Assembly: GCA_016742275.1 (NCBI GenBank)
Contig: JACVCD010000021.1
Location: forward strand, 1-64,000
Direction: 5' to 3'
Length of the DNA: 64,000 nucleotides
DNA from: Gemmatimonadaceae bacterium
GTDB lineage: Bacteria; Gemmatimonadota; Gemmatimonadetes; Gemmatimonadales; Gemmatimonadaceae
Below are positions 11,317 through 20,357 of this stretch, in pieces (positions within the stretch are counted from its first letter, which is position 1; each line of letters opens with the position of its first letter). The translations under genes were made by a program, and so were the position numbers. The notes beneath the pieces were generated by a model. The model saw only the letters and a list, made by a program, of their open reading frames with translations. It made no database searches and had not been told where the DNA came from.

Positions 11317-12309
11317 TCAGGGTCGAACGAACTGCACAATGCGCTGCACCACGCCGGCCGTCTGGCTTGGTGAGACAATACGTCCGGCGAGTACATGATC
11401 GTCCTCGCCTTCAATGGGGTACACCGGTACTCGTTCCAGTGAGGCGGTGCCGGATGCTGCGACGCGGTTCATCCATTCCTGCGTGCGCTTGGCGTCGACC
11501 ACTTCATCTCGCTCGTTTACGAACAGCAGCGTCGGCGCGCGATACTGCGTCCAATCCAGTCCGCGCACATGCTCGACCAGCGCCTGCATGGGGAACAGTG
11601 CCAGCGAAGGATAGCGCACGGTCCAGAAGCGCCGCTGTTCTTCGTTGGCGGGTGTCCATTCATGAAAGGGTATGGCACGTGGAAGAATAAGGCGTGCCCA
11701 AGGGAGTGTCAGCCAGCGAGTGCGCTGGTCAGCCGGGCCAAAGTTCGGAGAGATGAGCACGAGTCGTTGCAGACCACCGCCAATATTCGCCGGTTGAACG
11801 GCCAACCAGGCGGCCAGTGTGCCACCGGTAGACGTACCGATCACCACAACTGAATCACCCAATCGTCGACCGATCTCCATGGCTTCGATGGCATCGGCCA
11901 ACCATGCGGTCACCGTGGCACTCCCGAGCGAATCGCCGGGCAATCCGTGTCCATTCAATCGCGTTTCAAAGAGATTGGCGCGCAGCGAGTCGGCAACTGA
12001 TTCAGCGACTGGCGCCGTCTCCTGACGCGTTGCCGAAAAACCATGCAGGTACACGACGCTCCAGGCCGTACGACGTGGCGTCTGTGTATCGAAGAACCGG
12101 ATCCGTTTGGCTACCGCGGTATCCGCAATCCCAGCCGCGCGCTCACGCTGTGCGACCCACGCGGGAATGGCAGCAACTGCTGTGGGCATGCCCGCAATCA
12201 CTGCTGCCGGTTCCGGAGCGCGTGCGGATGTACGCGGACCGGCAACCAGCACCAGTGCTGCAATTCCTGCAATCCAGAGCCAACGCGGCACACGGCGCAG
12301 AGGGGCCAT
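11317..12309 (-). CDS. Exported alpha/beta hydrolase
   Basis: A 330-residue alpha/beta-hydrolase with an N-terminal membrane or signal segment (RWLWIAGIAALVLVAG). The oxyanion strand VVYLHGFSATRQE and the nucleophile elbow VIGTSTGGTLAAW place the catalytic Ser. The acid lies near LLFVNERDEVVD and the His in EGEDDHVLAG. Serine carboxylesterase or lipase chemistry in the periplasm is likely, with unknown substrate. It is the last gene of a minus-strand run headed by a His-rich protein and a TonB receptor, ten bases after the BNR-TlpA gene, so it is probably co-transcribed. Confidence 0.8.
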   Translation of the reverse strand: MAPLRRVPRWLWIAGIAALVLVAGPRTSARAPEPAAVIAGMPTAVAAIPAWVAQRERAAGIADTAVAKRIRFFDTQTPRRTAWSVVYLHGFSATRQETAPVAESVADSLRANLFETRLNGHGLPGDSLGSATVTAWLADAIEAMEIGRRLGDSVVVIGTSTGGTLAAWLAVQPANIGGGLQRLVLISPNFGPADQRTRWLTLPWARLILPRAIPFHEWTPANEEQRRFWTVRYPSLALFPMQALVEHVRGLDWTQYRAPTLLFVNERDEVVDAKRTQEWMNRVAASGTASLERVPVYPIEGEDDHVLAGRIVSPSQTAGVVQRIVQFVRP

Positions 12310-12318
12310 GGCCGCAAT

Positions 12319-14367
12319 CTATCGTGATGGAACCGTAATGTTGGCGTTAGATGCCGCGAGAGCGGCTTCGATGGCTGAACGCGCAGCGGGCAATGCACCG
12401 TGAATGTTTCCCGAGGTCTTCCAGGTCACACGGCCGGTTGCGTCGATGAGGTAGGTCTCCGGCACTCCCACCACACCAAATAGCGACTGGATCCGATTGG
12501 CCGGGTCATGCGCAATGGACATGCTCAGCTTCTCGCCGGTTGCATAGCGCACAATCTTATCCTGGCTGCCCTGATCCACACTCACGGCAACGACACGAAG
12601 TCCGCGCGAGGCATATGCATGATGCAGCGTGTCGAGATCAGCCATCTCTTCTCGGCATGAGGTGCACCAAGTGGCCCACACATTCACCAGTGTGACTGCG
12701 CCCGGTGCTGAGACTTCAAGACTGTCACCAGTGCGGGCTCCATGCACGACCCGCACACCATAAGCAGGTGCGAGATCGCCGGTGGCGACAGGGGCAAAGG
12801 CTTCACTGGTGGATGCCTGCTTTGTTCCGCCCGTCTTCAGTACACCTGTCCGGAGCAGCACCTGCGTGTTGCCAACGCTCGGCAGCGGCATGGAAGCCTT
12901 GGGGTCCTTCATGTTGGGTCGTGCCTTGGCTGCGGCCTGCGCCGCTTCAGCCGCTTGCTGCGACCATGCCACCATCACAGCTCCGTGCGACGCGTCGACC
13001 GCAAGAACCGGGAAGGCCGCAGCGGGCCCCGCCTCACTGATGGGCGTGGCTTCAGCGAACGACTGGCCACCATTCCCGGATGTGCGCATTACAACCTGCG
13101 GGACACGCAGTGTGCCGTCGTCCCACGCAGCAAGAACGCGCGATGGGGCACCAGTCTGATTCACAACCGCCAACTGCACATGTGCAGGCTGTGAAGCCTT
13201 GGCGACGCCGAGCGGCGTAGCTGGTGCGAATGAAAGACCGTTGTCTCGCGACTGCGTGTAGTAGACACCGGCTGCGCCCGGCTTGCCGGTCCACCACGCC
13301 ACGTGCAGCGTCTGCGCGTCGTCAACTGCCATGGACGGTCCAGCATGCGGACATCCATCGAAAACCCAGTCATCGTTGTGCACGCGTACGGGTGCGCTCC
13401 ACGTTTGTCCGCGATCGCTGCTGCGCGACACAACGATATCGCGGATGGTGGTGCGGGTGCCGCCCGCGCCGTGTTGCGCGTGTGGGTTTCCGCCAGCTGG
13501 TGCAGGTGCAGGTGCAGGTGCAGGTGCAGGTGTTGCTTTGCCAGACGATGTGTCCGCATCGATCACGGCGCGCCAGGCGAGGTACACTGTGCCCTTGGCA
13601 TCCGCGGCAATCGCCGTGCGGCAGCAGGGGCAGGCTTCGGTCATCGGTGAACTGGTGGCCACTACGCGCACATTGGGCGCCCAGGTCTTTCCGCCGTCTG
13701 TGGAGTGCGTGGTGTAGACAGCAGACTTGCCCGCGCGCCCATCCAGCCAGGCGACGTGGAACGTGCCGTCCGGTGCACCATGCAGTGCGTGAAAGTTGTG
13801 CGAGCCAAAGTGCGCGCCATCGGCAACCGATGCCGTAGTGTCGTCGGTGACGGTGACAGGCGCACTCCAGGTGGAGCCGTTGTCATCGGAACGCACGAAG
13901 CGCAGCGCACTGACGGGGAAGCGACGTCCGGGAATGACCTTGCCGACGACATAGAGCGCACCGAGCGTATTTCCAACGCCAGCACGTGCAACCCACGCCA
14001 GTTTCGGAGGCGCTTCTCCGTGTGGTTCGATTGGCCCCAGCGCATCCGTGAGTTCACGCACGACGGATCCTGAGTCGTTTCGTGGTGACACCATTACATG
14101 CAGTCGACCGTCGGTGCCGCCATTCGGGGCCGACACCCACGCCGTGGCGCGCACACCGTCAGGCGCGATGGCCAGAATCGGTGCCGCACCAACTACGGTC
14201 ATAGCCGAAATCGAGCGCGGTGCATCGAATGACACGGACACCAGACTGTCGGCACTCGCCCCACTCCCCCCCGCATCGCGCGATGCGGGGGCGTCTGTGC
14301 AGGCACCAACCATCAGTGCACCAACAACGAGAACAGGCGTTACGACAACACTTCGTGAAGCGCGCAT
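12319..14367 (-). CDS. Lipoprotein with BNR/sialidase-like propeller fused to a TlpA thioredoxin domain
   Basis: A 682-residue lipoprotein with lipobox VGAC (Cys23). Residues about 45-515 form a sialidase-like propeller with BNR/Asp-box repeats (RSDDNGSTWS, HSTDGGKTWA, SRSSDRGQTWS, QSRDNGLSF). A CPCC motif at 246-249 and a GCPH at 338-341 are unusual for a sialidase and could bind metal. No sialidase catalytic Arg triad was recognised. From about 530 a TlpA/ResA-like domain begins with WATWCTSC (redox Cys568 and Cys571) and a cis-Pro in GVPETYLID. A Pro-Ala run at 280-291 comes from a GGTGCA hexamer repeat. It starts 3 bases after the TonB receptor stop. The context suggests periplasmic metal or disulfide chemistry (inference). 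Confidence 0.82.
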   Translation of the reverse strand: MRASRSVVVTPVLVVGALMVGACTDAPASRDAGGSGASADSLVSVSFDAPRSISAMTVVGAAPILAIAPDGVRATAWVSAPNGGTDGRLHVMVSPRNDSGSVVRELTDALGPIEPHGEAPPKLAWVARAGVGNTLGALYVVGKVIPGRRFPVSALRFVRSDDNGSTWSAPVTVTDDTTASVADGAHFGSHNFHALHGAPDGTFHVAWLDGRAGKSAVYTTHSTDGGKTWAPNVRVVATSSPMTEACPCCRTAIAADAKGTVYLAWRAVIDADTSSGKATPAPAPAPAPAPAGGNPHAQHGAGGTRTTIRDIVVSRSSDRGQTWSAPVRVHNDDWVFDGCPHAGPSMAVDDAQTLHVAWWTGKPGAAGVYYTQSRDNGLSFAPATPLGVAKASQPAHVQLAVVNQTGAPSRVLAAWDDGTLRVPQVVMRTSGNGGQSFAEATPISEAGPAAAFPVLAVDASHGAVMVAWSQQAAEAAQAAAKARPNMKDPKASMPLPSVGNTQVLLRTGVLKTGGTKQASTSEAFAPVATGDLAPAYGVRVVHGARTGDSLEVSAPGAVTLVNVWATWCTSCREEMADLDTLHHAYASRGLRVVAVSVDQGSQDKIVRYATGEKLSMSIAHDPANRIQSLFGVVGVPETYLIDATGRVTWKTSGNIHGALPAARSAIEAALAASNANITVPSR
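13499..13528. repeat. In-frame hexanucleotide repeat (GGTGCA x5)
   Basis: Five perfect GGTGCA units on the plus strand encode the alternating Pro-Ala linker of the overlapping minus-strand lipoprotein. Changes in copy number would keep the frame and only alter linker length between propeller blades. Confidence 0.85.
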
Positions 14368-14370
14368 GCT

Positions 14371-16725
14371 TCAGCGTCCTCCGGTGGAGAGTGTCAGACC
14401 GGCATTGACTGCACGACCGGCACCCGGGAAGTAGAAACGACCGTTTCCGCTGTTGGTGGCAACGGCGGCAGCGAACCGCTTATCGAAAATGTTCTCGACA
14501 TTTACGAACAACTCAGCGCGCGAGGCGCCTGTGCGTGTACCACGCACTTCCGGCAGACGATAGCTGACCGTGGCGTGCGCGAGTCCGTACGCAGGTACTG
14601 CACCAAATGCCACTGGCACGATGGCCGGGGGACGACCGGTCTGTGTGACCTGCGTGTAGAGCGTGCCGCTACGCGTGTTGGCATTGTCCACGTACGTGCG
14701 GCTCTGCGCCTCACCCCACACCGTGATGCCAAGCGCTGAGGCGGGACGGAGACGCAATTCAACTGCGCCGCGCTGCGACGGTACACCTGGAATGCGCTTG
14801 CCGGCATAGTCCACCGACACGTTTTGCCCCTGCGCATTGATTTCGGTGCCGGTGAACTGCGTCATCTCGTAGCGCGCGTACGTATACGACGTCACCACGT
14901 CCATCCACGGTGCCACGAGTGTGGTGGCGCTCAATTCGAGACCTGTGCGACGCGTGCGGCCGACATTCTCGTAGATGGTGCGCGGGAATTGCACACCAGG
15001 AATCACCACCGTGCGCGAAAGAAATTCTCCCGTGACATTGGTGCGATACACGGCGGCGTCGAGCAGCACCTTGTTGGCCACGAGAGCCTTCGCACCCACT
15101 TCGTAGTTGATCAGCGACGACGGACGCAGATCGGTGTTGATGCCACGAATGGTATCGGGGCTGGCCGTCAGTTCGCTGTTGGTCGGCACTTCGAATCCGC
15201 GTGCCACACTGCTGTACACGCTGGTGCCGGGGCGAATGTCGTAGCGAACGGCAATGCGCGGTGAGACCTGATCAAACGACTGCTTGACCGACAGGTTGGG
15301 GCGGATGCGATCGTCGATGTCATACGTGACGCGGTCATATCGCGCACCGGCTGTGGCCGTGAACTTGCCACGTGTCACGTCGGCCGAGCTGTAGACACCC
15401 ACGCTCGGCAGCACCACGTACTGATCGGCGCAGGAGATGGATCGGATGTTGCGGGCTGGGTCGTTCACGCACGGCGTCGTGCGCCCCTGCGTGCCGGCCA
15501 CATTGGTCCACTGCCGCGAGTCACCGTACCAGCGATCGACATCGAGACCGGTGTTGATGCGGGTGGTGATGGCAGACGTGCCTTCACCGCTGCGGAAACC
15601 GATGGCGTGGCGCAGCCCACCCTGCACACGATGCGTGTTTTGATCGACGACGCGGAAGATCGGGTGGTCGATCGTGCGCGCTGTGCCGAATACAAAGGCG
15701 TCGAGTGAGCCGAGTTTGTCACCCAGCCCCTGCGAGGCGCGCGCGCCAAAACGCCACCGCTCTTCACGACGACCGTATGCACCCGTGACATTGAGTGGAT
15801 CGGCAGCCCACGGTTCATTGCGCCATCCGGCATCGGTAAGCGAGCCGGGGATCTGCATGTCGAGATTGCTGTAGGCGACATCGAGGCCAATACGCGTGGC
15901 GGTAGTCGCTGGCGCCGGGCGTCCTGATTCCTGACGTACCCAGTTGAGGCGCAGATTGGCGCGCTGCATGGTGTTTTCGTTCTGCACACGCATGCCGGCG
16001 AGATCTGTCATGCTGGCTTGAATGAGCCCATCGAATGCGCCGCGCGCGCCGCCGGCCTGCAGGTCGATCTTGCGGAGATTCACGCTGTCGAAGCCGAATC
16101 CACCACCCGTGAGGCGTGCCGAGATGCCCTGCATCTCACGACCACTGCGTGTGATGACATTGACCACACCGCCTGACGCTGCACCGCCGTACATCGCGCT
16201 GCCTGGACCACGCACGATTTCGATCGAACGGGCTGAGCCAAGATCGAGCTGATCGAGACGGGTCTGTCCATCAGGTTCGGTAATGGGCACGCCGTCCAGC
16301 AAGATGCCAACCCCACGCACGCCGAATCCGCCGCGCGCGCCTGAGCCACGAATGGAAAGACGCACATCGTCACCGCCGAACAGGTTGCCGGCAATCACGC
16401 CGGGCACAGTGCGCAGCGCTTCGGTGAGTGAAACCGTGCTGGTGCGCGAGAGTGTATTGGTGTCGATCACGGTGATGGACACCGGCAACTTGCGCAGTTC
16501 GCGCGCATCGCGCGTGGCAGTCGTCACCACTGGATTGAGCGCGCGGGCTCGCGAGGCCGAATCTTGGGCTGCGCGTGATGCGGAATCGGACACGGGGCGC
16601 TGCGCAGCAAGGGGCAGGGCAGCAAGTACGGACGAAGCGGCAAGCAACAGCGTGCGGGCTGGCAGCACACGTACGGATGTACGCGCGCGCTCAAGCCCCC
16701 GCGCGAAGAACGGCGAGGACAACAT
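14371..16725 (-). CDS. TonB-dependent outer-membrane receptor
   Basis: A 784-residue outer-membrane receptor. A signal peptide (about 1-42, ending PLAAQ) precedes a TonB-box-like LNPVVTTATRD. The plug domain spans about 70-200 with LTEALRTVPGV, SIRGSGARGG, GILLDGVPI and IEIVRGPGSAMYGGAASGG. The rest is a 22-strand barrel ending in NAGLTLSTGGR. It imports a ligand using TonB energy. The 5' neighbour is a His/Cys-rich exported protein and the 3' neighbour a BNR-TlpA lipoprotein. That setting points to metal or metal-complex uptake, but the ligand cannot be read from the sequence. Confidence 0.92.
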   Translation of the reverse strand: MLSSPFFARGLERARTSVRVLPARTLLLAASSVLAALPLAAQRPVSDSASRAAQDSASRARALNPVVTTATRDARELRKLPVSITVIDTNTLSRTSTVSLTEALRTVPGVIAGNLFGGDDVRLSIRGSGARGGFGVRGVGILLDGVPITEPDGQTRLDQLDLGSARSIEIVRGPGSAMYGGAASGGVVNVITRSGREMQGISARLTGGGFGFDSVNLRKIDLQAGGARGAFDGLIQASMTDLAGMRVQNENTMQRANLRLNWVRQESGRPAPATTATRIGLDVAYSNLDMQIPGSLTDAGWRNEPWAADPLNVTGAYGRREERWRFGARASQGLGDKLGSLDAFVFGTARTIDHPIFRVVDQNTHRVQGGLRHAIGFRSGEGTSAITTRINTGLDVDRWYGDSRQWTNVAGTQGRTTPCVNDPARNIRSISCADQYVVLPSVGVYSSADVTRGKFTATAGARYDRVTYDIDDRIRPNLSVKQSFDQVSPRIAVRYDIRPGTSVYSSVARGFEVPTNSELTASPDTIRGINTDLRPSSLINYEVGAKALVANKVLLDAAVYRTNVTGEFLSRTVVIPGVQFPRTIYENVGRTRRTGLELSATTLVAPWMDVVTSYTYARYEMTQFTGTEINAQGQNVSVDYAGKRIPGVPSQRGAVELRLRPASALGITVWGEAQSRTYVDNANTRSGTLYTQVTQTGRPPAIVPVAFGAVPAYGLAHATVSYRLPEVRGTRTGASRAELFVNVENIFDKRFAAAVATNSGNGRFYFPGAGRAVNAGLTLSTGGR

Positions 16726-16863
16726 GAGGTATTCCGGTTGTTGGGAGGTGGTCCGCGACCGATTGCACCGAATGGCGTATCAGTTCGCGCATCGAGTTCG
16801 TGTTACGAATCGCACGACAACGCACCCGGTGTGCTCACGGGTACTCGTGCTTGGCGCCTGAAA

Positions 16864-17301
16864 TCAGGCCTCGATGACAACCGGTGGAGCGGTACTGAAG
16901 GGAAGAACAAAATCCACCCACGAGGCCATCACCGCATGTGCGGCTCGACCAGGCTGTGTGGTGGACAGGCGCCGGATGTTCGTCAGCGCAAAGATGTCGG
17001 CGTCAGGAAGGTCAGGCGCCGAAAATGGGCAGCAGTGCCCAAGGCAATGGCACTCGCCATCGCCGTGTTGCTGGTGGTGATCGGTGGATTGGTCTGCAGA
17101 CTTTTCCACCACCTGCGTTGCGGCCTCATTCTCGTGATGCGAATGGGAATGAGCGTCGGCTGCATTCGTCACGACAGCGGAAGTCGTCTCCGGCAGCTTG
17201 GCTGACTCACAGGCGTGAAACACTCCGGCGTCGCTCTGTACGAGCGACAACCAGAATGCCAGCCCAAGAGCCAGCCACCGAACCGCCGGGGACTTCTGCA
17301 T
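16864..17301 (-). CDS. Exported His/Cys-rich, probably metal-binding, small protein
   Basis: A 145-residue protein with a signal peptide (MQKSPAVRWLALGLAFWLSL, ending SDAG). The middle has a His-rich stretch, AHSHSHHENE then STDHHQQHGDGE, followed by the Cys/His cluster CHCLGHCC. The C-terminal 55 residues are hydrophobic with no clear motif. This composition suggests binding of copper, zinc or a similar ion in the periplasm. It is 138 bp upstream of the TonB receptor on the same strand, and is likely the first gene of that operon. No named family was recognised. Confidence 0.7.
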   Translation of the reverse strand: MQKSPAVRWLALGLAFWLSLVQSDAGVFHACESAKLPETTSAVVTNAADAHSHSHHENEAATQVVEKSADQSTDHHQQHGDGECHCLGHCCPFSAPDLPDADIFALTNIRRLSTTQPGRAAHAVMASWVDFVLPFSTAPPVVIEA

Positions 17302-17319: not shown

Positions 17320-18714
17320 TCAGACCGCGTCGGACAAGCTCGAGAAGTTGAAATCCCGGACCTTGATGGGGGGCATGGCCACACCATCACCACCCGCCGT
17401 GCGCACGCTCTTCCCGATGCCTTCGAGATTGTTAAGCATGAACAGCGGCGAGTCATTGAACCGGAAGTTCTTGATAGAGCGAAGAATCTTGCCGTTTTCT
17501 ATCAGGAACGTGCCGTCGCGGGTGAGACCCGTGTACATCAGCGTTCGTGCGTCGAGCGCACGCAGGTACCACAACCGTGTGACCAGCACACCACGCGTGG
17601 TGGATGCAATCATGGACTCCAGCGTGTCGGGGCCGTCGGCCATGCGCAGTCCTGATGTGCCACCGGTTGGTGTCTTGCCCTGCTTGCTGGCCCAGAAACG
17701 ATTGTAGGCGAGCTGATTGAGTACTCCATCCTTGACCCACGTCTGCCGAGACAAGGGCAGGCCTTCGCCATCGAATGGTGATGTGAGAATGAGTGGGTCG
17801 GACGGATCGGAGTAGAGTGTGACGCGGGGATCGACAATGCGCTCGCCAAGCTTGGTGCCGCCGGGCTTGGCAAAGGCCGAACGTCCTTCATCGGCAGCGC
17901 GCGCCTGAAATGCGCCACCCATCAGACTCACCAGATTGGCTGTCGCTTCCGGTTCAAAGATGACCGTGTAGCGACCCGGTTCTATTCCCACCGGGTTGCG
18001 ACTGCGACGCGCCTTGTCGATGGCCCGATCGGCGATGCTCTTGATATCGAGCTTGTCCCAGTCGGTGTCTTCTGCGCCAACCCAACCGGAGCCCGTACCA
18101 TCATTGGTGCGCGCCGTGAGTGTGTAGTTGGCGTTGGTGCTGCGCTGATAGGCGAAGAGCCCTGCATTGGTGCCGATGGCGGAGGCTGCCGCAGTGCACA
18201 CGAGATAGCCGGCCACCGTGAGCTCATTTCCCGCACGCGCCGGTGCCAGCGCCGACAGTGCGGCACGCGCACGATCCTCAGCGCTCAGGTTGGCCGTGCG
18301 ATCGGACCACGCTTCCACCGTGCGATACTGCTGCGGACCCAACTCACCCAGATACTCCGGGTCTTCGGGTGCGAGCTTGGCGAGTGCTTCGGACTGTTGC
18401 ACCGCGCGACGCAGTCCTTCATCGCTGCGATCGTTGGTGACCACGCTGGCTTTGCGCTTGCCGAATACACTCTGCACACGAATGGTGGTGTTGGTGGTGG
18501 CACCACTCGTGGACATCTGATTGTCGGCAAACCGCAGATTGGTTTCGCGGCTACTCTGCACGGTGACACGTACGGCGTCGGCGGTGCTGAGCTTTACGGC
18601 ACGCTCCACCAGTGCCTGTGCTTCATCACGTGTGAGGACACCGGCGGGCAGGCGCGGCACGGCAAACAGTGAGCGCGGAGCATCTGGGATGCGATGGCTG
18701 TTTGAGTTGCTCAC
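17320..18714 (-). CDS. TldE/PmbA-family protein (partner of TldD)
   Basis: A 464-residue TldE/PmbA-type subunit, which with TldD forms a heterodimeric metallopeptidase. Recognisable features are the N-terminal region with VTVQSSRETNLRFADNQM and the C-terminal half with GEGLPLSRQTWVKDGVLN and GTFLIENGKI. It lacks HExxxH, as TldE does. The start is taken as the GTG at 18714, because it overlaps the tldD stop as GTGA and gives the expected length; an upstream ATG would intrude 54 bases into tldD. No signal peptide is seen, unlike its partner. Translation is coupled to tldD. Confidence 0.88.
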   Translation of the reverse strand: MSNSNSHRIPDAPRSLFAVPRLPAGVLTRDEAQALVERAVKLSTADAVRVTVQSSRETNLRFADNQMSTSGATTNTTIRVQSVFGKRKASVVTNDRSDEGLRRAVQQSEALAKLAPEDPEYLGELGPQQYRTVEAWSDRTANLSAEDRARAALSALAPARAGNELTVAGYLVCTAAASAIGTNAGLFAYQRSTNANYTLTARTNDGTGSGWVGAEDTDWDKLDIKSIADRAIDKARRSRNPVGIEPGRYTVIFEPEATANLVSLMGGAFQARAADEGRSAFAKPGGTKLGERIVDPRVTLYSDPSDPLILTSPFDGEGLPLSRQTWVKDGVLNQLAYNRFWASKQGKTPTGGTSGLRMADGPDTLESMIASTTRGVLVTRLWYLRALDARTLMYTGLTRDGTFLIENGKILRSIKNFRFNDSPLFMLNNLEGIGKSVRTAGGDGVAMPPIKVRDFNFSSLSDAV

Positions 18715-20357
18715 AGCGTGCGCCCCGTGTTGATGATGTTGGCGTTCTTGAATCGAACCGGCGGGCATCCATGACTCACGGCATTGGCCTGGCTCGGCTG
18801 GCCCTTGCCGTCGTTGAATGTGCCGCCATGCATGTAACTCGATTTGCCACCCAGCATGTCGAGTGTGTTCCAGAAATCCGGCGTACGCATCTGATAGGCG
18901 GCGTCCTTGACCTGGCCAACGATCTTGCCGTTCCGGATCTCGTAGCAGAGCTGTGCGCCGAACTGTGCGTTGTAGCGCTGCTGATCGATTGAATACGACG
19001 CGCGACCAACCATCGCGATGCCGCGATCGGTTGCCGCGATGAGATCGTTCCAGGAAAGATCCTTCTCACCGGGCATGAGCGACACATTGGGCATGCGCTG
19101 GAAAGCCACATCAGCCCAACTCTGCGCGTACGAACAGCCGTGTGAGCGAACGGGCTTGCCGGACTTCTCATACCACGTACGCAACCACGGCGCCTGTTCT
19201 CGCGTGGTCTGATAGTCCACGAAGATGCCGTCCTTCACGATGTGGAACTCGTCAGGCTGCACACCATCGTCGTCATAGCCGATTGTCGCGAGCGCGCCCA
19301 CTTCGCTGCGATTGCCCACGAGATTCATCATCTGGGGCCCGAGCTTGAGTGAGCCGAGCACCTTGTCCGGCGGCGAGATGAAACTTGTGCCGGCGAAGTT
19401 GGCTTCGTAGCCCATGGCACGATCGAGCTCGGTGGGGTGCGCGAGGGATTCGTGAATGGTGAGGAAAAGCTGCGACGGATGCAGAATGAGATCGTAGCGT
19501 CCGGGTTCAACGGGCTTTGCGGTGAGCTTTTCCGCTGCTTCCGCTGCCCACACCTTGGCGTTGTTGACGATGTCCGCCTCAAGCACGTACTCCCAACCAC
19601 GTCCGGCAGGCTGCACCACTTCCGGACCACGAACGGCAGTGCCGCTGCGATCGGGCGATACGGCAGTGCAGGACATCGTCACCCAGCTCCGCACATAGTC
19701 CTGCGTGATGATGGAGCCGTCGGTGTTGGCGTAGTTGCGCTCTTCCTTCACGAACGACAGACCACTGTTCACGAAGCGCACATTGGCCACCGTGAGTGCG
19801 GCGGCATTGGCACGCAGCAACAAGTCGGCCTTTTCTTCCACGGCAATCGTGAATGGATCGACCGTGTACGATGAGCGCCAGGTCTTGTCGACCTGCGCCG
19901 GTGCCGGTGCCAGTTCAACACGACGATCGCGCGCGATGCGATTGGCTTTGGCAATGGCCGTGGCTTCCTGCGCCGCGCCACCAACACCGGCCTTGGTCAG
20001 TTCCTGCGTCGCGGCAAAACCCCAGCAACCATCCACGAGTACACGCACACCGCAACCGATGGTGTCGGTATCGACAACATCGGTGACCTGTCGTTCGCGC
20101 GTTTGCACGCTGTTGTTGCGATTGCGGGAAATGCGCACATCGGCCCATGACGCACCGGCACGCTTGGCGGCGTCGAGTGCCTCGAGCATCAGATCGCGCA
20201 CGACCGCATCAGCGGCGAGCGGTGGAAGCGGAGCGTAGGCGTTGGGGTGCAGCGGGCGCATGAACACGCCCGGTGATGCCTCGAGGAGGCGCGGGCCCAG
20301 GGCGAGGGCGCCAAGCGCACCGCTCGAGGTCGCAAGAAAGTCGCGGCGGGTCGTCAT
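18711..20357 (-). CDS. tldD: Tat-exported TldD-family metallopeptidase
   Basis: A 548-residue TldD-family metallopeptidase. The N-terminus is a twin-arginine signal (TTRRDFLATSSGALGALALG). The zinc-binding HExxxH motif is present as IHESLAHPTELDRA, with downstream YEANFAGTSFI as in TldD. In other bacteria TldD/TldE degrades unfolded or modified small peptides in the cytoplasm, for example in microcin maturation. The Tat signal puts this version in the periplasm. It overlaps tldE by four bases. The substrate is unknown. Confidence 0.9.
   Translation of the reverse strand: MTTRRDFLATSSGALGALALGPRLLEASPGVFMRPLHPNAYAPLPPLAADAVVRDLMLEALDAAKRAGASWADVRISRNRNNSVQTRERQVTDVVDTDTIGCGVRVLVDGCWGFAATQELTKAGVGGAAQEATAIAKANRIARDRRVELAPAPAQVDKTWRSSYTVDPFTIAVEEKADLLLRANAAALTVANVRFVNSGLSFVKEERNYANTDGSIITQDYVRSWVTMSCTAVSPDRSGTAVRGPEVVQPAGRGWEYVLEADIVNNAKVWAAEAAEKLTAKPVEPGRYDLILHPSQLFLTIHESLAHPTELDRAMGYEANFAGTSFISPPDKVLGSLKLGPQMMNLVGNRSEVGALATIGYDDDGVQPDEFHIVKDGIFVDYQTTREQAPWLRTWYEKSGKPVRSHGCSYAQSWADVAFQRMPNVSLMPGEKDLSWNDLIAATDRGIAMVGRASYSIDQQRYNAQFGAQLCYEIRNGKIVGQVKDAAYQMRTPDFWNTLDMLGGKSSYMHGGTFNDGKGQPSQANAVSHGCPPVRFKNANIINTGRTL

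Follow-up and report, generated by a model that had tools for sequence, protein, structure and literature searches.

Nascent peptides that sense copper are known from a few proteobacterial cases (PMC9426467, PMC9973294). CruR of Bordetella pertussis, a protein of 145 residues, has a CXXC motif followed, after 45 intervening residues, by an RAPP sequence three residues from its end; it heads a TonB-receptor operon across a 162-bp gap, and copper at the nascent chain relieves arrest, which leads to Rho termination (PMC9426467). CutF uses these elements to the reverse effect (PMC9973294). Here, we describe a locus in a 64,000-nucleotide stretch of a Gemmatimonadaceae bacterium (GenBank assembly GCA_016742275.1, contig JACVCD010000021.1, positions 1 to 64,000, called the window below) in which a small protein, H, precedes a TonB-dependent receptor, R, and a propeller lipoprotein, B. 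Our favored interpretation, held with some reserve, is that H, R, and B are a copper acquisition and handling module under a leader of the CruR/CutF type. A leader-controlled TonB copper operon is an already known kind of system, and a preliminary description of the window, which knew of no described system with this set of genes, overlooked the close similarity to the CruR-BfrG/CrtA operon of Bordetella (PMC9426467, PMC12914433). As there, a small exported Cys-containing leader with a 45-residue spacing and an xAPP sequence near its C terminus stands a long gap away from a TonB receptor.

All features of the locus lie on the minus strand. H (16864 to 17301) encodes a predicted copper-responsive nascent chain of 145 residues, an assignment that draws on the open reading frame, its motif spacing, its phylum-wide family, and a weak match to CopL_fam; a Pfam search of the window protein returned no match. 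R (14371 to 16725; 784 residues) has Pfam Plug and TonB barrel domains, as expected of an outer-membrane receptor. B (12319 to 14367; 682 residues) is a lipoprotein with BNR_2 and AhpC-TSA domains, and structure matches and an AlphaFold2 model point to a seven-bladed propeller fused to a TlpA-type thioredoxin. A fourth gene, L (11317 to 12309; 330 residues), encodes an alpha/beta hydrolase (Pfam Hydrolase_4). The preliminary description had these four open reading frames in place, along with the motifs AHSHSHH and CHCLGHCC in H and CPCC and GCPH in B (CTSC is also in B), and the Pfam domains bear out its receptor and its propeller-thioredoxin fusion. The gaps it called short are so between R and B (3 nucleotides) and B and L (9), but not between H and R, where 138 nucleotides intervene (16726 to 16863); the gap from tldE to H is 18 nucleotides.

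The grouping of four genes survives in part. The order H-R-B-L recurs in same-genus loci (L038, L039/L050 on one contig, L046, L047, L048, and L105, where L plus a number labels a locus and G plus a number a genome, G000 being the source genome), and in another, L049, gene L sits between tldE and H with the module otherwise kept. H-R-B is thus present in eight same-genus loci counting the window (seven besides it), and it is found without gene L in eight loci from other genera and a sister family (L051 to L055, L057, L058, and L062), whose receptors are ~25 to 30% identical to R. Conservation of the neighborhood across Gemmatimonadota therefore extends to the same genus, other genera, and the sister family, and the module's receptor was not seen to be kept without the His-rich and BNR genes. 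The hydrolase is separable. In two complete genomes that lack the module, G039 and G073, gene L directly follows tldE, and in the genus it is present in 21 of 30 genomes versus 9 of 30 for R. Because of this position and wider spread, we reject gene L as a member and assign it to the tldDE neighborhood. The real module is the three genes H, R, and B, and its recurrence is beyond chance. Directly upstream of H lie tldD and tldE (17320 to 20357, minus strand), strongly conserved in the genus; there the copper module adjoins tldDE and may share a transcript with it.

The leader character of H is apparent from its motifs and from what is constant among its relatives. Three elements stand out in the window protein: AHSHSHH (residues 50 to 56; 17134 to 17154), CHCLGHCC (residues 84 to 91; 17029 to 17052), a candidate copper site, and LPFSTAPP (residues 133 to 140; 16882 to 16905), a candidate ribosome arrest motif. 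In an alignment of 15 sequences, C31, H56, C84, P134, P139, and P140 are invariant and C86 is nearly so, while conservation outside the motifs is poor, with 20 to 26% identity between genera. All complete members of this set (H of L038 is truncated at a contig edge) have a hydrophobic N terminus taken as an export signal, as called from hydropathy and inspection without a dedicated predictor. In the window protein, 45 residues separate C91 and T137. Measured from the last Cys of the cluster to the residue preceding APP, the distance is 45 throughout the genus and 42 to 46 in the rest of the set, while total length ranges from 122 to 169 residues. A profile search found H-type proteins in 91 of 298 Gemmatimonadota genomes, at ~107 places. 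Among 45 proteins inspected, namely, the 15 aligned sequences and 30 further loci fetched from the profile matches, the spacing is 42 to 50 in 44, with a mode of 45, although total length spans 122 to 230 residues (for some distant members dependent on the chosen start codon); H of L158, left unparsed by the Cys-cluster pattern, also has a gap of 45 after its last Cys. All 45 carry [AG]PP inside the last 16 residues, with TAPP rather than RAPP in the window. Motif conservation is partly built in, as the profile includes the APP motif, but the spacing holds also for members with E values near 1e-10.

These features can be set against the described leaders. The filters published for CutF-like proteins are fewer than 150 residues, PP in the last 15 residues, a signal peptide, and a same-strand gene within 1,000 nucleotides (PMC9973294), and H has 145 residues, P139-P140, a hydrophobic N terminus, and R on the same strand 138 nucleotides away. 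Like the leaders of CutF-CutO-CutG in Rhodobacter capsulatus and of CopL-CopA-CopB in Xanthomonas and Stenotrophomonas, H is an exported Cys protein with a C-terminal Pro-rich motif upstream of a putative copper protein (PMC9973294); unlike in those systems, its cargo is a receptor and a propeller rather than an oxidase, and the stem-loop that covers the next ribosome-binding site after CutF was not found here. From CruR, a DUF2946 protein, H differs in falling below the DUF2946 cutoff, in having CxCxxxCC plus His in place of CXXC, and in ending with LPFSTAPP in place of RAPP.

What follows H-type leaders elsewhere in the phylum is informative as to their role. In the 30 fetched loci, the genes after H are TonB receptors in 18 by reading, ten of those checked with Pfam. 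Other cargo, likewise Pfam-checked, comprises MbnP-MauG/MbnH-CopC-CopD, PCuAC-SCO1, and CopC/CopD with a DUF1775 protein of the YcnI type; two beta-barrel-like proteins have no Pfam match, and two loci are ambiguous. The identified cargo is copper related. The source genome itself has a second H-type leader outside the window (L139; G000:C26, about 63757 to 64158), which heads MbnP, a MauG/MbnH-like di-heme protein, CopC, and CopD. The beta-barrel-like protein, headed by H-type leaders in L152 and L165, is rich in Met and His (GVMGDHTHHAGEWML) and is a candidate copper outer-membrane protein, and in L155 and L163 the leader is followed by a protein with a C-terminal CxxCH cytochrome-like domain and then by PCuAC and SCO1.

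The preliminary description had viewed H as a metal-capture protein, and H could indeed be a mature periplasmic chaperone or sponge for copper that partners R and B, with the C-terminal motif part of the fold or a sorting tail. The signal peptide, the His-rich region, and the Cys cluster, present in all members, would suit such a carrier. However, the part of H that is constant in length is the stretch from the cluster to APP, ending 1 to 9 residues from the C terminus as in an arrest peptide, and H is poorly conserved between genera outside its motifs (20 to 26% identity). Moreover, because the same type of H heads unrelated cargo, which would be unexpected of a dedicated partner, it is better seen as a leader than as a companion of R. 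We regard the carrier role as unlikely, and H, by analogy with CruR and CutF, as probably a regulatory nascent chain.

For R, the nearest solved relative is PqqU/YncD (E value, 3.7e-48), raising the alternative that it imports pyrroloquinoline quinone (PQQ) and that its neighbors serve a quinoprotein instead of copper. PqqU has been reported in 183 Gemmatimonadetes, and its signature is Y/F/W99, R304, and R365 (PMC12124388). With each of three alignment modes, the residues of R at these positions are F134, A349, and S403, and the seven genus sequences agree in this, so that two of the three differ; Arg350 and Arg404 lie one position off the signature sites, and a register error of one residue is possible. 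The score of R is 224 bits against a cutoff of 1,200, and receptors of the module in other genera are only ~25 to 30% identical. Import of PQQ by R is thus very improbable, and we reject it on the two differing signature residues. The CxxxM element of the OprC copper site (CxxxM-HxM; PMC11836926) is absent from the R translation. The genes after R are B and L, with no PepSY_TM gene as in CrtA loci; CrtA, a copper receptor with a six-residue binding site that includes an essential His358, has this gene downstream in >75% of loci. R is another type of receptor than BfrG/CrtA, with a propeller-TlpA lipoprotein in place of the PepSY gene, and from the gene context we infer that its substrate is copper.

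B adds a component without a counterpart in the Bordetella operon. An AlphaFold2 model built from 8 sequences (mean predicted local distance difference test score, 73.6) shows a propeller at about residues 45 to 515 (12823 to 14235) and a thioredoxin fold (12352 to 12789). The latter is TlpA/ResA/DsbE-like, with the redox motif CTSC (12655 to 12666) in a WCTSC context that fits WCxxC, an AhpC-TSA match at an E value of 7.3e-16, and structure matches to 3kcm and 3gl3. The propeller has BNR/Asp-box repeats and a fold like those of BNR/GH33 sialidases. GH33 enzymes have a catalytic Arg triad, an Asp, and a Tyr/Glu, and their propeller is six bladed; B has seven repeat units by sequence, and VIA-align comparison of the model puts seven-bladed propellers on top (CylK, Z score of 35.4; PLL-type lectins, ~30), above sialidases (~25). 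B also differs from sialidases in its putative ring of Cys and His residues and its copper neighbors, and its propeller is predicted to be seven bladed.

The suggestion that CPCC (residues 246 to 249; 13621 to 13632) and GCPH (residues 338 to 341; 13345 to 13356) are metal or redox sites is supported in part by conservation. All 32 relatives keep the C-x-C-C of the former and the Cys-Pro of the latter (C246, C248, C249, C339, and P340), but relatives can have Asp or Val in place of the His of GCPH, and the whole of GCPH as a metal site was rejected on that ground. A different set, E118, H193, C246, C248, C249, C339, and H396, is kept in the classes of relatives designated A1 and A2, while class B relatives retain only the Cys residues among these ligand candidates. 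All seven lie in or beside the loop before the innermost strand of five successive blades, and by the equivalence of these positions they would meet around the mouth of the channel. N2O reductase has a propeller-borne, His-ligated copper site, to which the site proposed for B is loosely comparable. A paralogue of B is present in the source genome outside the window (L006/L008; G000:C7, about 290977 to 291588). This propeller, in a 455-residue frame, bears CDCCQ and GCPV and belongs to the class found on Roseobacter-group plasmids.

The link of B to copper comes from the neighborhoods of its relatives, some of them in other phyla, which carry a sialidase annotation. CopC adjoins them in L040 (Rhodothermales), in L063, and in Methylomagnum (12-bp spacing), and in L057 a CsoR-type repressor, a copper-type P-ATPase, and a cupredoxin adjoin the module itself. 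CopC, CopD, and a multicopper oxidase lie alongside the Roseobacter relative; multicopper oxidases are near those of Tritonibacter, Marinovum, Roseivivax, Pseudosulfitobacter, Phaeobacter, Sulfitobacter, and Leisingera, several of which share one island, and copper ATPases accompany those of Adhaeribacter. C-x-C-C and CP are present in 10 of 10 plasmid-borne relatives. As a control, stretches 50 kb from the locus on the Roseivivax and Methylomagnum plasmids were free of copper-annotated genes; the Roseobacter plasmid is metal rich throughout, and its copper linkage carries little weight. That B is a copper-linked propeller is well supported by these neighborhoods, as is the earlier guess of copper handling by a thiol-disulfide lipoprotein. 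The TlpA association recurs as well: L065, like the genus, has a TlpA-type gene fused to the propeller, L040, L041, L042, L053, L060, L064, and L140 have one adjacent to it, and L156 has one nearby. TlpA/ScoI-type thiol reductases act in copper-enzyme assembly, and the TlpA-like domain of B could similarly reduce copper-binding Cys residues, although here it is fused to or beside a propeller and not beside SCO or CoxB. In L061, the propeller is preceded by genes like MsrP and MsrQ, for a molybdopterin reductase and its heme membrane partner, and in L058 such genes are found upstream of it, a hint of copper-linked methionine repair.

Copper neighbors of this kind also suit a detoxification module, induced by copper with the sign of CutF, in which B sequesters or oxidizes surplus periplasmic copper. 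CutF and CopL are activators (PMC9973294), class B propellers on plasmids have multicopper oxidase, CusA, and copper ATPases for company, and the genes beside the module in L057 are CopA, a CsoR-type repressor, and a cupredoxin. However, the first cargo gene encodes a TonB receptor, and TonB receptors import; other H-family members head cargo for acquisition or cuproenzyme assembly (MbnP-MbnH and PCuAC-SCO1). Detoxification therefore seems to us an improbable purpose for the module. A more specialized role, mainly to supply the copper enzyme N2O reductase (NosZ), is suggested by clade II NosZ in 15 of 19 genomes with a class A propeller versus 87 of 279 others. This association is confounded by phylogeny: G055, G078, and G249, all of the genus, have the module but no match to NosZ, and the reverse combination is found in others. 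The enrichment seen across the phylum does not hold inside the genus; a NosZ-dedicated supply is distinctly unlikely, and we reject it.

If copper acquisition is indeed its function, the module may work as follows. The Cys/His cluster of H would sense copper during translation and export, while the C-terminal LPFSTAPP, 45 residues past the cluster, would stall the ribosome, and copper-dependent release or persistence of this stall would set the synthesis of R and B. At low copper, H would remain stalled at APP and R and B would be made; excess copper would free H and turn the operon off. The sign of this response is borrowed from CruR and could be opposite. R would import copper across the outer membrane, probably as a complex, and B would take the periplasmic copper at its Cys/His/Glu ring at the mouth of the propeller, with its TlpA domain keeping the ring cysteines reduced. 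In the region between H and R, no Shine-Dalgarno sequence lies upstream of the R start (around window positions 16700 to 16730), and the ratio of C over G is 1.2 to 1.7 in the genus versus about 1.1 in R, an excess that is compatible with a Rho site but only suggestive and does not demonstrate one. A 9-pair hairpin just past the ATG of R shows two double changes among the seven genus sequences, too weak for a claim.

Several observations weigh against this interpretation. A conserved RNA fold was sought in the gap between H and R and none was found, and we rejected an RNA switch or stem-loop there for that reason. H starts 18 nucleotides past tldE in the genus, which makes it doubtful that H opens a transcript of its own. 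The window H has no match to DUF2946 (PF11162), to which 3 of the 15 aligned sequences match weakly (best E value, 0.029, below the gathering cutoff), and it scores 16.7 bits with CopL (NF033807; cutoff, 40 bits). Alone among families, CopL_fam is matched by most of the aligned sequences, 9 of the 15, and by these weakly and below the cutoff (best E value, 9.5e-5). In profile comparison, H and DUF2946 aligned only in their signal peptides; H and CruR share an architecture, but common descent is not demonstrated by profile comparison. Proteins of the DUF2946 family occur elsewhere in the phylum, in 66 of 298 genomes at an E value of 0.01, 17 of them above the cutoff. The candidate metal site of B rests on position and conservation, and class B propellers are located in copper-resistance islands, so that B alone may serve detoxification.

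As for what is new, no description was found in the open-licence papers searched of a copper-linked sialidase/BNR propeller or of a Gemmatimonas copper TonB receptor, and the divergent leader family, its spread in Gemmatimonadota, and a copper role for the C-x-C-C propeller appear to be undescribed in this literature. We tentatively raise the further possibility, in which we place less confidence than in the module itself, that B represents a novel class of extracytoplasmic copper proteins, seven-bladed propellers with a copper-binding Cys/His/Glu ring at the channel mouth and a TlpA domain of its own, under phylum-specific nascent-chain sensors whose arrest motif, LPF[AS][NT][AG]PP, is unlike those of CruR and CutF.

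If the module functions as proposed, a divergent family that keeps the 45-residue ruler, present in roughly one-third of the sampled genomes of another phylum and ahead of varied copper cargo, would make nascent-chain copper sensing a broad mechanism, and H-type leaders would be predictors for unrecognized copper operons. The propeller, widespread under its sialidase annotation, could then be tested as a copper protein, and R would be a candidate copper importer at the outer membrane, where copper uptake is poorly understood.

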